This document shows, piece by piece, positions 2,953-32,705 of a stretch of DNA of 35,292 bases. The notes beneath the pieces are model-generated. The model ran no database searches. It was not told the DNA's origin and was given only the letters and a program-made list of their open reading frames with translations. The DNA comes from a virus: positions 1-35,292 of IMG/VR virus record IMGVR_UViG_3300038701_001978; one strand, 5' to 3'. A program made the translations under genes and the position numbers. How positions within the stretch are numbered: the first letter of the stretch is position 1; each line of letters starts with the position of its first letter.

Positions 2953-3242
2953 TGAGCAATTGGTGGGACGAGGGATCGGCCAAGAAAATAAAAGTTGATA
3001 AGGATGAACAGCCAGCACAATTTGGACTTGTTAAGTCTATTGATGATATTGAACCTCTTTATTCTCCAGAAGTAGCAGCGAAATATTTAGCTGTTTCAAT
3101 TCACACTTTACCGGGGTTGATTAGAAAAGGATTACTTGAGCCAACAAAGCAGGGGCGAAACAACTACTTTACAGCGCAACAAATAGCAGACTGTAAAAGA
3201 AAGAGGCAACAAGAGTGGCGAAGAAAAAAAGGCCAACGATAA
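2952..3242 (+). CDS. Excisionase-like (MerR/HTH_17-type) DNA-binding protein
   Basis: This 96-residue protein has a winged-helix HTH at about residues 37-82: SPEVAAKYLAVSIHTLPGLI, then G-L-L-E-P and N-Y-F-T-A-Q-Q-I-A-D-C, the layout of MerR/excisionase-family domains. The C-terminus is strongly basic (KRKRQQEWRRKKGQR). It overlaps the integrase start by 28 bases and shares its operon. A small winged-helix protein coupled to a tyrosine integrase is usually the recombination directionality factor (Xis), which bends attL/attR DNA for excision. Function is inferred from context and fold. Confidence 0.7.
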   Translation: MSNWWDEGSAKKIKVDKDEQPAQFGLVKSIDDIEPLYSPEVAAKYLAVSIHTLPGLIRKGLLEPTKQGRNNYFTAQQIADCKRKRQQEWRRKKGQR

Positions 3243-4540
3243 GAAAATCCATAAGGATTAATGGCGAGCTAATTCAAAATCGATTCACAAGTCCTGAAGA
3301 CGCTGCTGACTGGTATGCTGTTCAATTAAGAAAGAAAAAAAGAATCGAAGCTGGCCTAGATGAATCTTTAGGACCTCAAATTATAACTGTCTCAGAGTAT
3401 GCAAAAATCTTTATGCGCCGAAGGGTTGTTGAGGAAAGAGTTGTTAAGGGTACATGGCGAAGCGATGGTCAAAGGTTTGAAGATTATATTTTGCCACTTA
3501 TGGGTGATAAAGTTTTGCAGTCGATTAAATCAAATGACTGGAGTGAAGCTTTAAATCTCATTCAATCAAACCCATTAAAGGTGCTAAAAATTGCTCTTTC
3601 AAAAGCATCAAGCATTCAGGAAAAAGAAAAGATCCAAAAGAAAATAAATGCCGGCCGTACTGCTTTAAGCAATACCACTCGAAATCGAATAAGAACCTTA
3701 ATAAATACGATGTATAATGAATCGATAAAGGTTGATAAAATTTCGCTATCTAACCCAATGGCCCAGGTCGATGTAAAAGACGAGGGTGATCATGAGTTAA
3801 AATCTGATTATTGGGAGTCTACAAAAGAGTGTCGTGAATATTTAGAGGCTCACAAGATAAATGCTGAAGAAAGTGGCCATTATGGATATTGGCTTTGGGC
3901 TGTTTTCTCAATTTATTCAGGAGCCCGAGTTGGTGAGCTTTTAGCGTTAAAGCATGAAGATATAAACTTGGACCAAGGCAAAGTCCGAATTAATAAAATA
4001 TATGATCCAAACGTGAAGGCTGATGTTTATAGAACGAAGGGTTCAAGGAAGTCGCAAGCTAAGGGCCGTAAACGATCTTCTCGCTGGCTTTATCTAACAG
4101 GCCCAATTCTAGCCGTATATGAACTTCACGTTCAACATACTCCATATAACAGGCTCACAGACCATGTCTTTATGAATACTAGAGACTCGGCATTCTCTCA
4201 AATTAAAAACCAAGGCACTAGGTCCACACTTTCTGGAATTACTAGAGTGCACAAAATGATGTGTGAACAATCGGGAGTCAGAGAATTAAGGGTTCACGAT
4301 GTAAGGCATACTTTTGGAGCCCAATACATGATGAGGGGCGGCAACATTACAGCCCTTGCAAAGATCTTGGGGCACTCGAGTCAGTGGATTACAGAGCGTT
4401 ATGGGCACCTATCTGAGGCTCATATTTCTAAGGAAGTTTTGCGCGTTTCCTTTGAAAATGACGTAAAGCGTGATGCCACAGTGATGCCAGTCCTAAAAAA
4501 CAGGCAGAGTAAATCAAAGAAAAATAGAGGTTCAAAATGA
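3215..4540 (+). CDS. int: Tyrosine-family site-specific integrase
   Basis: This full-length phage integrase (441 aa) begins at GTG 3215 inside the xis-like gene. The C-terminal catalytic domain shows R238 (GARVGE), the H-x-x-R box H361-D-V-R364-H365, H387 (GHS) and nucleophile Y396 (ERYGHL). The N-terminal part contains an arm-binding-like segment and a SAM-like core-binding domain (about residues 55-180). It cuts and rejoins attP and attB to insert the phage into the host chromosome. The attP with its tRNA segment lies 67 bases downstream. One copy of the putative arm-site repeat is inside the 3' end of this gene (4470-4489). Confidence 0.95.
   Translation: MAKKKRPTIRKSIRINGELIQNRFTSPEDAADWYAVQLRKKKRIEAGLDESLGPQIITVSEYAKIFMRRRVVEERVVKGTWRSDGQRFEDYILPLMGDKVLQSIKSNDWSEALNLIQSNPLKVLKIALSKASSIQEKEKIQKKINAGRTALSNTTRNRIRTLINTMYNESIKVDKISLSNPMAQVDVKDEGDHELKSDYWESTKECREYLEAHKINAEESGHYGYWLWAVFSIYSGARVGELLALKHEDINLDQGKVRINKIYDPNVKADVYRTKGSRKSQAKGRKRSSRWLYLTGPILAVYELHVQHTPYNRLTDHVFMNTRDSAFSQIKNQGTRSTLSGITRVHKMMCEQSGVRELRVHDVRHTFGAQYMMRGGNITALAKILGHSSQWITERYGHLSEAHISKEVLRVSFENDVKRDATVMPVLKNRQSKSKKNRGSK
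4470..4489. repeat. Putative integrase arm-site repeat, copy 1
   Basis: The 20-mer GTGATGCCACAGTGATGCCA occurs here, inside the last codons of int, and again exactly at 4769-4788. Each copy is itself two tandem units of GTGATGCCA spaced 11 bp apart (one helical turn). The copies sit on either side of the tRNA-matching attP core, 118 bases before it and 114 after it. This is the geometry expected of P and P' arm-type integrase sites. Confidence 0.6.
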
Positions 4541-29770: not shown

Positions 29771-29935
29771 AAGTAAAAAATGGTTTTTGTACAAATTGGG
29801 AGAACTAAACGGCAATCTAAGCCAAAAGTCTTAATCTGTTAATTTACGGCCCCGAAATGCAAATAAACAAAATCTAATTTATTCTGGACTTGATGTAATT
29901 CTTTATAAGCTGAACACTTGCTGAGGAGGTACGTT

Positions 29936-30598
29936 ATGAATAAATCAGTATTTGAAGAGATGATAAATGAACGTTTAAAGAGGGTTGAGTCTACTATAAT
30001 GAAGTTTGATTGGAGTTGTAGGCACACCTACTCTAATTGGTGTGCTCAAACCTATAAGTATGTTTGCCACTCAGCCCCTTTAATAAAAAAAACTAGTGAG
30101 GCTCTCCCTGTTGGGCATTTAAAAACAGAAATGCAGAAACATTATAAAGAGGAACTTGGTCACGAAATGTTTGCACACAGGGATGCTAAATTCTTTGGTT
30201 TGGATGCTTCTGATGCGCCTGAGTTGGAAAGTACAAAAGGAATGTACTCTTACGTTGATCAGTATATCGAGAATGATCCAGGTGCTATGTATGGTTATGC
30301 CTTTGCACTTGAGAATATTTCAAAAGTTTATGCACCTTGGATAAGTGAAAAAGTTATGAAGTCTTTCAATGTTGAAACTTCAAATAATCATTCTAAGAAC
30401 ATTCCAGCAAGCTTTTTGACTCTTCATGCTGAGGTTGATCAAGACCATGCTGATTGTGGCATTCAGGCCCTTGAGCATATGAGTGAGAAGAATAAAGAAG
30501 TGGCAATTACAGCAATGAATCAGTCTTTCGATAATTACGAAAACTTTTTAAATGGAATCACAGATTATGTTCAGAGCCTACTTCCGAAAGCCCAGTAG
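29936..30598 (+). CDS. Heme-oxygenase-like diiron oxidase/oxygenase (HDO family)
   Basis: The 220-residue protein starts at ATG 29936 behind the very strong SD GAGGAGGT. It has the complete six-ligand pattern of heme-oxygenase-like diiron enzymes (the UndA/SznF/BesC group, related in fold to TenA): E73-x-x-H76 in E-E-L-G-H-E, E126 in F-A-L-E-N-I, and H164-x-x-x-D168-x-x-H171 in H-A-E-V-D-Q-D-H. Such enzymes use iron and O2 on amino acids, fatty acids or amines. The Trp/Tyr/His-rich helix Y-S-N-W-C-A-Q-T-Y-K-Y near residue 40 is also typical. The substrate cannot be told. It overlaps the acyltransferase gene downstream, so both likely serve one pathway. It does not look like a virion or lysis gene. 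Confidence 0.8.
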   Translation: MNKSVFEEMINERLKRVESTIMKFDWSCRHTYSNWCAQTYKYVCHSAPLIKKTSEALPVGHLKTEMQKHYKEELGHEMFAHRDAKFFGLDASDAPELESTKGMYSYVDQYIENDPGAMYGYAFALENISKVYAPWISEKVMKSFNVETSNNHSKNIPASFLTLHAEVDQDHADCGIQALEHMSEKNKEVAITAMNQSFDNYENFLNGITDYVQSLLPKAQ

Positions 30599-31181
30599 CT
30601 TAAGTGCAAAAGAGGCTGATGAGGTATACCTCTTTTGGAAAGATAATTGGCAAAAAGAATTTGAGAAACAAAAATTAAATGGCATTAATACTAATTTCTC
30701 AGACCACTTTATATTTTCTAATGAGATTCTTATTCTCCGCTCAGAAGATGAAATTGCGGGAATAGTTTTAATAAATAACTTTGATAGAAGGTTAATCTCA
30801 GTAAAAGAATGTTCATATTTTGAAGGGTTCCCAAATCTTCCGAGCTCTAAGGTACAAGCATTGAGGTACTTATTATCTAATCAAAAATTTCGGAGAGGAA
30901 AGCGATCTAGAGTCGGACATTTACTGCTGTCATTGTGTTTTGATAAATTTTTGGGCGAAGATGTTGAGTTGTTAGTTGGAATGCCACTCAAAGAAAACGG
31001 TGTGCATAATCTATGTAGAAAATTTGGGATGCAGTCATTAATTCAAAGCGAAAAGGTCACAAAGCATGGTGTTGGTGTAGAATATATGACGCTTGATAAA
31101 AGTGATCTTAACCTTAAGCTTGTTGTTGAAACTATAGACTTACATCTTCAGTCAGTTGAAGTTTATTGTGAATCGGTTTGA
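30552..31181 (+). CDS. GNAT-family N-acyltransferase-like protein
   Basis: The 209-residue product has a GNAT-like layout: a strand pair E-I-L-I-L-R-S-E-D-E-I-A-G-I-V-L-I-N-N, the acyl-CoA loop region F-R-R-G-K-R-S-R-V-G-H-L-L-L-S-L, and a C-terminal half with L-C-R-K-F-G-M-Q, as in other acyltransferases of the GNAT/N-acyl amino acid synthase type. It starts within the diiron-oxygenase gene (ATG 30552 or ATG 30567; neither has a strong SD), so it is probably translationally coupled. Its 3' end overlaps the convergent gene at 31132 by 50 bases. It may acylate the substrate or product of the oxygenase. Confidence 0.65.
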   Translation: MESQIMFRAYFRKPSSLSAKEADEVYLFWKDNWQKEFEKQKLNGINTNFSDHFIFSNEILILRSEDEIAGIVLINNFDRRLISVKECSYFEGFPNLPSSKVQALRYLLSNQKFRRGKRSRVGHLLLSLCFDKFLGEDVELLVGMPLKENGVHNLCRKFGMQSLIQSEKVTKHGVGVEYMTLDKSDLNLKLVVETIDLHLQSVEVYCESV

Positions 31182-31842
31182 ATATTTGCTCAGTGGTATG
31201 TGATATAAAGACGCCTGACATTTCTTCTTTATCAGAATTAATAGACCTCTTGTAAATAGGGCAGCAATAGCCTAAGTCCATTTCCCAAAAATAGTTTAAG
31301 TTAGCATCGCCATATTTTTCCCACACGGGGTGCTTTGGAATATCAAACTTTACAAGTTTTTCGTGTTCAACACATTCAGCAATTTTATTCTGTATAGAGG
31401 GTGCATAAACGGGCTCACGGTCATAGAGCATAAAATTTGAGTTAGTCATTAGCTCAACAATGTCGTAAGTCTCAAACATCATAAATGACGCTGACCGATA
31501 GAGCTGATTGAACTCAAAGTCATAAATTTCAAAAACATTGTTGTTGGAACGTCTCATAAGGTTTGAAATATTTACATGTGAATAATGATTAGAAATTTTC
31601 ATAAAGTAAAGAGCCATCTTCACTTCATTATCAATTAGGGAAAGATTTGGATCATACTTATTGTAAACCTCTGCAAAGAGTAGAATATTGTTCTCAACGC
31701 TCTTATCTATGGTATCTAAGTTATAATTTTGAATAAATTTCCGTGGAAACCTTTCCCTTAAATACTCTAAACTTTTCAATGCATTTAATTCGATACCAAA
31801 CATCCCTTGTTTCTCACAGTAATGTGAGATATTGATAAACAA
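31132..31842 (-). CDS. Unknown protein, convergent with the acyltransferase
   Basis: This leftward frame has either TTG 31842 or, more likely, ATG 31803 as start (223 residues). It is rich in Asn, Tyr, Phe and Met, with N-Y-F-W-E-M-D-L-G-Y-C-C-P-I-Y, I-S-N-H-Y-S-H-V-N-I-S-N-L and R-S-A-S-F-M-M-F-E-T-Y-D. No membrane span, signal or known motif is visible. A perfect -35 TTGACA lies upstream (31886-31881). Its 3' end overlaps the acyltransferase gene tail to tail, so the two transcripts would be antisense there. It may belong functionally to the cassette, for example as sensor or regulator, but this is not shown. Confidence 0.6.
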   Translation of the reverse strand: MFINISHYCEKQGMFGIELNALKSLEYLRERFPRKFIQNYNLDTIDKSVENNILLFAEVYNKYDPNLSLIDNEVKMALYFMKISNHYSHVNISNLMRRSNNNVFEIYDFEFNQLYRSASFMMFETYDIVELMTNSNFMLYDREPVYAPSIQNKIAECVEHEKLVKFDIPKHPVWEKYGDANLNYFWEMDLGYCCPIYKRSINSDKEEMSGVFISHTTEQIFKPIHNKLQLTEDVSL

Positions 31843-31857
31843 ACAACAACTATCGAA

Positions 31858-31886
31858 TGTGTAGGATATTAAATGCTATGTGTCAA
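31858..31886 (-). promoter_or_regulatory. Possible leftward promoter with perfect -35
   Basis: Read leftward: TTGACA (complement of 31881-31886), 17 bp, then TACACA (complement of 31858-31863), a poor -10. It overlaps the first codons of the rightward gene at 31873. It would start transcription near 31850 and could drive the unknown gene ending at 31132. The weak -10 suggests low or activated expression. Confidence 0.35.
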
Positions 31887-32142
31887 TGAGCGAGTGATTT
31901 TAGTGCATTATCTTCAAAATTGTGCAGAAGAGCTTCGTCAAGCTTTTCGTAAAAATAACCTTAAGATACGTATTTTTAATGACCCAGATGTCATTTATAA
32001 AATGGAGGTTGAGGAACTAAAAAAAGTTGCTGATAATTTTTATTATACATTGAAAGCTTTTAAAACAGCTTTTCCTAGCCCAGATGAATTTTTACAAAAT
32101 ATTCAAAACAGTTTATTGGATCGAGACGGTGGGAATGATTAA
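31873..32142 (+). CDS. Hypothetical protein, 89 aa, before the repressor
   Basis: ATG 31873 has TAGGAT seven bases upstream. The helical product has an N-terminal Y-L-Q-N-C-A-E-E-L-R-Q-A-F-R-K-N-N and a middle helix E-V-E-E-L-K-K-V-A-D-N-F-Y-Y-T-L. It ends sharing TTAA with the stop of the leftward CI-like gene. No family is recognised. Its position beside the repressor suggests a lysogeny-associated gene, and it is divergent from the unknown gene at 31132. Confidence 0.55.
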   Translation: MLCVNERVILVHYLQNCAEELRQAFRKNNLKIRIFNDPDVIYKMEVEELKKVADNFYYTLKAFKTAFPSPDEFLQNIQNSLLDRDGGND

Positions 32143-32705
32143 TTCACTTTTAAAAGTTTGTAGACTTTATCTAGGACGACGTCTTTTTCCTTTTTCTCTT
32201 TTTTAGCATCAGCCTCATTAAGCTTAATCTGAATTTTTTGAAACTCTTCTAACTGCCGAAATATTGTTGGAAGTTTCGGGTTAATATCAGCAAGATGATC
32301 ATAACTACGAATTAATTTAATTTCAGCCTGTAAGTCCTTGATAGTATTTTTCATTTTTTCGATTTGTGCCTCATAACTCTGAACAGACTTAGCCTCTTGG
32401 TTGTTTTTTATAAGGGCCTCAATATTGGCGAGTTGCTTGGCTATGTCTTTAGGTTCACCATAGGTTGTGGCACCTTCACGAACCTCTAAATGCTTATTTG
32501 GGTTTTCATATAGATCAGACACCTCACATTTAAGAGCCCTAGCTAGAGAGGATAATTTCTCTGGGCTTGGTGTGGAGATGCCTTGTTCGTATTTTTGATA
32601 GCCACGTACTGATATATCGACAATTTCAGCTAATTCAGCCTGAGTAAGGTCAGCATTCTTTCTTCGTCGTTTTAGGTTATCTTTTAAAAACAATGTATTA
32701 TCCAT
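32139..32705 (-). CDS. CI-like repressor with XRE HTH and coiled coil
   Basis: Residues 6-65 form an XRE HTH: L-K-D-N-L-K-R-R-R-K-N-A-D-L-T-Q-A-E-L-A-E-I-V, then S-V-R-G-Y-Q-K-Y-E-Q-G, P-S-P-E-K-L-S-S-L-A-R. Residues ~85-175 are a coiled coil (YEAQIEKMKNTIKDLQAEIK) in place of the LexA-type self-cleaving domain of lambda CI, so induction by RecA cleavage is unlikely. It is divergent from the Cro-like gene, with a shared operator region between them. Its -10 TATAAT ends only seven bases before the ATG, so its mRNA is probably leaderless. Confidence 0.8.
   Translation of the reverse strand: MDNTLFLKDNLKRRRKNADLTQAELAEIVDISVRGYQKYEQGISTPSPEKLSSLARALKCEVSDLYENPNKHLEVREGATTYGEPKDIAKQLANIEALIKNNQEAKSVQSYEAQIEKMKNTIKDLQAEIKLIRSYDHLADINPKLPTIFRQLEEFQKIQIKLNEADAKKEKKEKDVVLDKVYKLLKVN

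Follow-up and report, generated by a model that had tools for sequence, protein, structure and literature searches.

The gene cassette found beside the lysogeny repressor of the phage described here is best explained, judging from its sequence and its relatives, as a phage-borne copy of a conserved chromosomal module of Bdellovibrionota, which encodes a GNAT-fold acyltransferase, a heme-oxygenase-like diiron oxidase (HDO) and a helical-PAS protein. The gene set, the linkage of its members, their spread across the phylum, their presence in two kinds of phage and their adjacency to a repressor gene were all directly observed.

The window, that is, the whole stretch of DNA analysed, consists of the 35,292 bases of a viral record (IMG/VR IMGVR_UViG_3300038701_001978). 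Because it carries a P22-like portal gene (PF16510, 1e-192), together with terminase, Erf and YqaJ recombination, endolysin-like and CI-type repressor genes and an integrase at 3215-4540, the virus is assigned from its gene content to the temperate P22-like phages. The sequence-only reading had regarded the cassette as being of prophage type, and the temperate context bears this out, but both the Bdellovibrionota origin and the bacterial module had escaped it. The cassette is located between a lysis-type gene and the repressor (Table 1), shows a low G+C content (0.35 against 0.38) and retains all its ORFs intact, and no known defence system was matched by it. Regarding the host, portals about 52% identical to that of the window are present in two genomes of the Bdellovibrionota set, the best named phage portal being 44.5% identical, and the helical-PAS family is restricted to this phylum; for these reasons, Bdellovibrionota (predatory bacteria and relatives) are the likely, not proven, host. 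The module was absent from the stretches read around the prophage portals of those two genomes. Both contig ends (35060-35292 and 1-298) encode sequence similar to one single-strand-binding-protein-like gene, although a search for exact terminal repeats of 20-400 bases was negative. Consensus promoter and terminator scans returned no more matches than in shuffled sequence.

Table 1. Features of the cassette and its surroundings in the window.
Feature	Position	Strand	Basis
Shine-Dalgarno AGGAGGT of the HDO gene	29924..29930	+	sequence
HDO (predicted heme-oxygenase-like diiron oxidase), 220 aa	29936..30598	+	PF14518, 3dde and MboA profile matches, invariant ligands
GNAT-fold acyltransferase, candidate N-acyl synthase, 209 aa	30552..31181	+	AlphaFold2 and Foldseek; relatives adjoin HDO
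Helical-PAS protein, candidate receptor	31132..31842 (TTG 31842 listed; likelier start ATG 31803)	-	alignment, PAS-type fold, linkage
Operator-like palindrome TCTCACA-GTAA-TGTGAGA, weak evidence	31812..31829		just 5' of the PAS ATG
Small ORF between PAS gene and repressor, coding status uncertain	31873..32142	+	ORF list
CI-type repressor, HTH_3 and coiled coil; candidate module output	32139..32705	-	HTH families

The HDO product was matched by the Pfam family PF14518 (Haem_oxygenas_2) at 6.4e-10 and 39.6 bits, above the cut-off of 28.9, and its profile matches in the PDB included 3dde (2.8e-18), which implies a seven-helix fold, and MboA, involved in mangotoxin synthesis (8.9e-8). In an alignment of relatives (n=56), the ligands E73, H76, E126, H164, D168 and H171 were 100% invariant, as were H69, D83, G120 and L125. 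These six ligands constitute the 3H/3C set described in a review of the HDO enzymes (PMC13108848). The sequence-only reading had placed the six residues exactly where they are found and had pointed to a strong Shine-Dalgarno sequence, which indeed lies shortly upstream of the ATG start codon, and its assignment of a predicted diiron oxidase with all six ligands was confirmed at this level. Membership of the CADD family (TIGR04305) was rejected, since the score reached 22 bits against a cut-off of 200.

The second gene overlaps the HDO gene by 47 bases, and a search of its product against Pfam, PHROG, NCBIfam and PDB sequences gave nothing significant. A GNAT-family Pfam match was obtained neither for this protein nor for five of its relatives, and the autoinducer synthase (LuxI) Pfam gave none at E up to 1. 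Nonetheless, a GNAT- or N-acyl-synthase-like protein had been claimed earlier and a structure comparison suggested, and an AlphaFold2 model built with four relatives (pLDDT 75, pTM 0.77) retrieved many GNAT folds in Foldseek with probability 1.00, so that the modelled structure shows the GNAT fold where no sequence family was matched. The model resembled the N-acyl amino acid synthase FeeM (TM up to 0.59) and the AHL synthases BjaI (TM 0.62) and LasI (0.58), a likeness that is not unique to LuxI among GNATs, since ordinary acetyltransferases, including those acting on proteins and aminoglycosides, were also resembled. The protein may thus act as an N-acyl synthase.

The cassette had initially been delimited as a pair of genes. 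The pair stood, but its extent did not, since a conserved third gene, encoded on the minus strand at 31132-31803 and separating the HDO/GNAT pair from the CI-type repressor, had been missed. Its product had no significant match in Pfam, searched with seven members, or among PDB sequences. In an alignment of seven members, the family showed few but sharp conserved positions, and among 68 members R142 was invariant and E175, Y126 and E105 were nearly so. The AlphaFold2 model (pLDDT 77, pTM 0.76) consists of N-terminal helices followed by a PAS-type domain with two strands, helices and three strands, and Foldseek retrieved the PAS domains of NifL, ARNT and HIF2a with probability near 1 but E values of only 1e-3 to 1e-2, the matches including FAD-binding NifL and LOV domains. 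The third protein is therefore predicted to have a PAS-type fold, at moderate scores. Among predicted viral proteins, one from an uncultured phage matched it over its full length (E 1.2e-10). No DNA-binding domain or HTH was detected in it by Pfam or in the model, and for this reason its link to the repressor is drawn from position.

Relatives of the cassette were traced by several routes. By tblastn, a 25% identical HDO relative was located on a plasmid of Bdellovibrio sp. HM001, with a GNAT relative directly upstream, and degenerate DNA patterns derived from the metal-ligand motif revealed two phages (L098 and L220) and three bacterial loci (L116, L195 and L160); a member of the helical-PAS family adjoins HDO or GNAT in each of these loci. 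For L116, the labels differ, being Deltaproteobacteria in the record and Myxococcota in the tree, and the genome falls within the Bdellovibrionota set. In viral contigs, a looser ligand pattern mostly hit sequences unrelated to HDO. No relatives were returned by single-protein pattern searches of viral contigs or by tblastn in named phages, and a first genome scan with a two-sequence alignment yielded nothing.

The survey was then extended to 369 genomes from the phylum to which L195 belongs (Oligoflexia; Bdellovibrionota). An HDO of some kind was present in 166 of them and the PAS family in 123, with a maximum of eight PAS copies per genome. Among the 30 best HDO loci, three of which had supplied the starting sequences of the profiles, a GNAT gene was located within 1.5 kb in all 30 and a PAS gene in 28. 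As a second sample, 40 loci lower in the ranking were read with 4 kb on either side, using profiles refined on the first set; several of these loci end at contig edges, and the corresponding counts were 37 and 26. Since GNAT thus adjoins HDO in 67 of the 70 pooled loci (the PAS gene in 54/70), the pairing is, in these genomes, well beyond chance, and the co-occurrence claimed from the window clearly holds. On the other hand, no member of the PAS family was detected in 12 related P22-like viruses or in 38 HDO-bearing genomes, mainly of Pseudomonadota, that had been selected by the ligand pattern; therefore, on present evidence, the module appears typical of Bdellovibrionota. A fatty acid desaturase gene (FA_desaturase, PF00487) stands beside the pair in 5/44 loci, and no transporter, resistance gene or peptide-forming enzyme was found to recur there. 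Several genomes (L231, L235, L237, L240, L243 and L246) encode multiple PAS-family proteins with no HDO gene within 1.5 kb, possibly solo receptors. A second HDO type was observed in Bacteriovorax-like bacteria (L142 and L143), in a cluster with AMP-ligase-like, KAS III-like, SDR, hydrolase and acyl-carrier-protein-like genes.

Besides the window phage, genes of the module are carried by two other phages. The L220 phage is lambda-like, with terminase, portal, tape measure and tail fibre J families, and its HDO and GNAT genes overlap as in the window (E values of 4.6e-62 and 7.6e-37). The only genes it has in common with the window phage, arranged in identical order, are those for HDO, GNAT, the PAS protein and the repressor, and no shared virion gene was detected. 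The L098 phage is related to the window phage (portal 59%, terminase 70%) and has the HDO and PAS genes, with no detectable GNAT of the window family. In all three phages, the PAS gene is found between HDO, accompanied by GNAT in two of them, and a repressor-type gene. In a quick HDO tree, characterised by long branches and SH-aLRT support only, and in which the L220 and L098 phages appear under their genome loci as L224 and L225, respectively, the clade of the window HDO was separate from the Pseudomonadota HDOs compared; the window and L220 proteins were sisters (99) inside the Bdellovibrionota clade, and the L098 protein was placed elsewhere within it (98). This separate grouping of L098 suggests that HDO was captured by phages at least twice. 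The cassette was also considered as a typical component of the window phage lineage and rejected as such, since HDO was found in 0/46 related P22-like records, many of which are fragments; it therefore appears to be an optional cargo of this lineage.

In both the window and L220, the PAS gene has a co-oriented CI-type gene on its 5' side, separated from it only by a small ORF on the opposite strand, and the two repressors are 26% identical over 136 residues (1e-8). In L098, the minus-strand gene at the place of the repressor starts HTH-like, is cut by the contig end and has no Pfam match, and a small XRE gene is also located just upstream of HDO. ORFs similar in size to the intervening one occupy the equivalent place in L220 and L098, and no similarity was found between the window ORF and its L220 counterpart. 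The window repressor had no S24 peptidase match, so that induction may run otherwise than by classic RecA-stimulated self-cleavage. The palindrome preceding the PAS start codon is perfect over 18 bp and belongs to a set of 18 comparable perfect inverted repeats of 7 bp within the window; it was rejected as a CI operator since it is the sole exact copy and none lies near the CI gene. Among the 25 genes found immediately 5' of the PAS gene and outside the module in wide loci, HTH_3 was the commonest Pfam family (10/25), three genes had histidine-kinase ATPase domains and one encoded a response regulator. Additionally, 14 of the 20 XRE hits in 8-kb loci were located at most 600 bp from the PAS gene; the XRE profile was built from PAS-gene neighbours, and the HTH_3 count is independent of it. 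An XRE neighbour was detected for only 26 of the 67 unique PAS genes with HDO nearby, the others being found near kinases, response regulators or unrelated genes.

Signalling is considered the most likely function of the module, with confidence about evenly balanced. Given the tight linkage of GNAT and HDO, both enzymes probably act in one pathway, and we infer a molecule, its sensing and an effect on lysogeny as follows. The GNAT would draw on acyl-ACP or acyl-CoA and attach the acyl chain to an amino acid or amine. With iron and O2, the HDO would desaturate, hydroxylate, decarboxylate or cleave the conjugate or its precursor; in some bacteria, the fatty acid desaturase would also edit the acyl chain. 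The desaturases beside the pair indicate acyl chains, and HDOs act mostly on amino acids and peptides (PMC13185094), so that an HDO-oxidised product of the acyl-amino-acid type is the simplest proposal. Such a product would accumulate with the number of carriers and bind the PAS protein, which also occurs in solo copies at other sites of the same genomes and is the obvious candidate for a receptor. The latter would adjust the neighbouring XRE/CI-type repressor, the natural candidate output, which would turn the signal into a lysogeny decision. In this way, the prophage could read the number of carrying neighbours, or a matching signal of the host, and bias the choice between lysis and lysogeny. 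A wider proposal, which we hold more tentatively and short of even confidence, is that Bdellovibrionota use an undescribed chemical language, made by GNAT and HDO and read by helical-PAS proteins, and that the phage copies are wired to the lysogeny repressor, allowing virus and host to eavesdrop on or override each other.

Several observations weigh against signalling: the GNAT family has no Pfam assignment, LuxI or other, and the GNAT fold is also found in enzymes that acetylate proteins and drugs; the fold matches of the PAS protein are moderate and it has no detected DNA-binding domain; a minority of PAS genes have an XRE neighbour; and the L098 phage has no detectable GNAT. Alternatively, the pair could make a secreted or membrane metabolite, such as an antibiotic, a siderophore-like compound or a lipid, which aids the lysogen or excludes rivals, in which case the PAS protein would sense oxygen, redox state or a metabolite and serve only to time production. 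PAS domains often bind heme or flavin, the model matches FAD-binding NifL and LOV domains, and an O2-using enzyme beside a redox sensor would make sense. Furthermore, mangotoxin and related natural products are among the toxins and metabolites made by HDOs (PMC13185094). However, the lack of a recurring transporter, resistance or peptide-forming gene, the adjacency of the PAS gene to XRE repressor genes, its extra copies without enzymes and the lack of a defence-system match render this explanation rather unlikely. In fact, it is the repeated position beside phage and bacterial XRE-type repressor genes that favours signalling over a toxin or defence role.

It could also be supposed that the cassette is an ordinary moron, an incidental host metabolic gene cluster with no role in phage biology, which would agree with its absence from the 46 P22-like records and from the prophage stretches of two Bdellovibrionota genomes and with its low G+C content. 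Nevertheless, the same module occupies the same place beside a related repressor in the unrelated L220 phage, the HDO tree suggests at least two captures and every ORF is intact, making an incidental cluster improbable. Finally, the pair could modify a cell component: the acyl group would be transferred by the GNAT to a protein, lipid or nucleotide, while a cofactor or precursor would come from the HDO, in the way that p-aminobenzoate comes from CADD. The weak CADD-like score and the resemblance of the GNAT model to protein and aminoglycoside acetyltransferases are compatible with this role, but it seems very improbable, considering that the CADD score is far below its cut-off, that the closest solved relatives of the HDO by profile are 3dde and MboA and that the PAS-XRE linkage is left unexplained.

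Among known systems, prophages of Phaeobacter inhibens carry LuxI/LuxR quorum-sensing circuits, in which synthase-receptor pairs control lysogeny, and these modules are exchanged between phages (PMC13345283). The cassette resembles them, by gene anatomy only, in placing genes for a GNAT-fold candidate synthase and a candidate sensor beside lysogeny control. On the other hand, Pfam does not identify its candidate synthase as LuxI, the set also includes a diiron oxidase, Bdellovibrionota are the likely hosts, a signalling role is only proposed and, in contrast to LuxR receptors, the candidate sensor is PAS-type with no HTH detected. The extra PAS proteins without HDO nearby in genomes of the phylum are comparable to LuxR solos. 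FeeM (2g0b) is similar in fold, in size and in TM score, but is only 10-13% identical. We know of no HDO or PAS partner of FeeM.

With 3dde and MboA, from the superfamily that includes UndA, BesC, SznF and CADD, the window HDO shares the six-ligand 3H/3C site (PMC13108848), but it belongs to a clade apart from the compared Pseudomonadota HDOs and has another gene context. The Pseudomonadota HDOs are often found in an operon of T_hemolysin (PF12261), an AMP-binding ligase, HDO and an SDR (L083, which was read out, and L102-L219), and 73 T_hemolysin-like hits were obtained in the locus set, the coupling of HDO to T_hemolysin being present in most Pseudomonadota HDO loci fetched. We take T_hemolysin to be a GNAT-related family of small enzymes, and the operon is apparently an uncharacterised biosynthetic cluster. 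It differs from the cassette in its enzyme family and in the extra ligase and SDR, and the helical-PAS family is absent from the 38 HDO-bearing genomes. The window GNAT was rejected as a T_hemolysin member, having no profile match and a BLASTP E of 5 to one member.

The HDO review makes no mention of GNAT, phage or quorum sensing (PMC13108848), and no described system with GNAT, HDO and helical-PAS parts was found in the literature searched; while the enzyme folds are known, the whole system matches none described there. Even if signalling fails as an explanation, a module that is present in many Bdellovibrionota genomes and was captured by different phages beside a repressor needs explaining, and the likely host group includes Bdellovibrio, for which laboratory strains exist. 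If the signalling model is right, the cassette would be similar to arbitrium (AimP/AimR) of Bacillus phages in combining a phage-made signal with a phage sensor, the arbitrium signal being a peptide; phages would then have a communication system distinct from both arbitrium and LuxI/LuxR, and predatory bacteria a chemical one made with a diiron oxidase.
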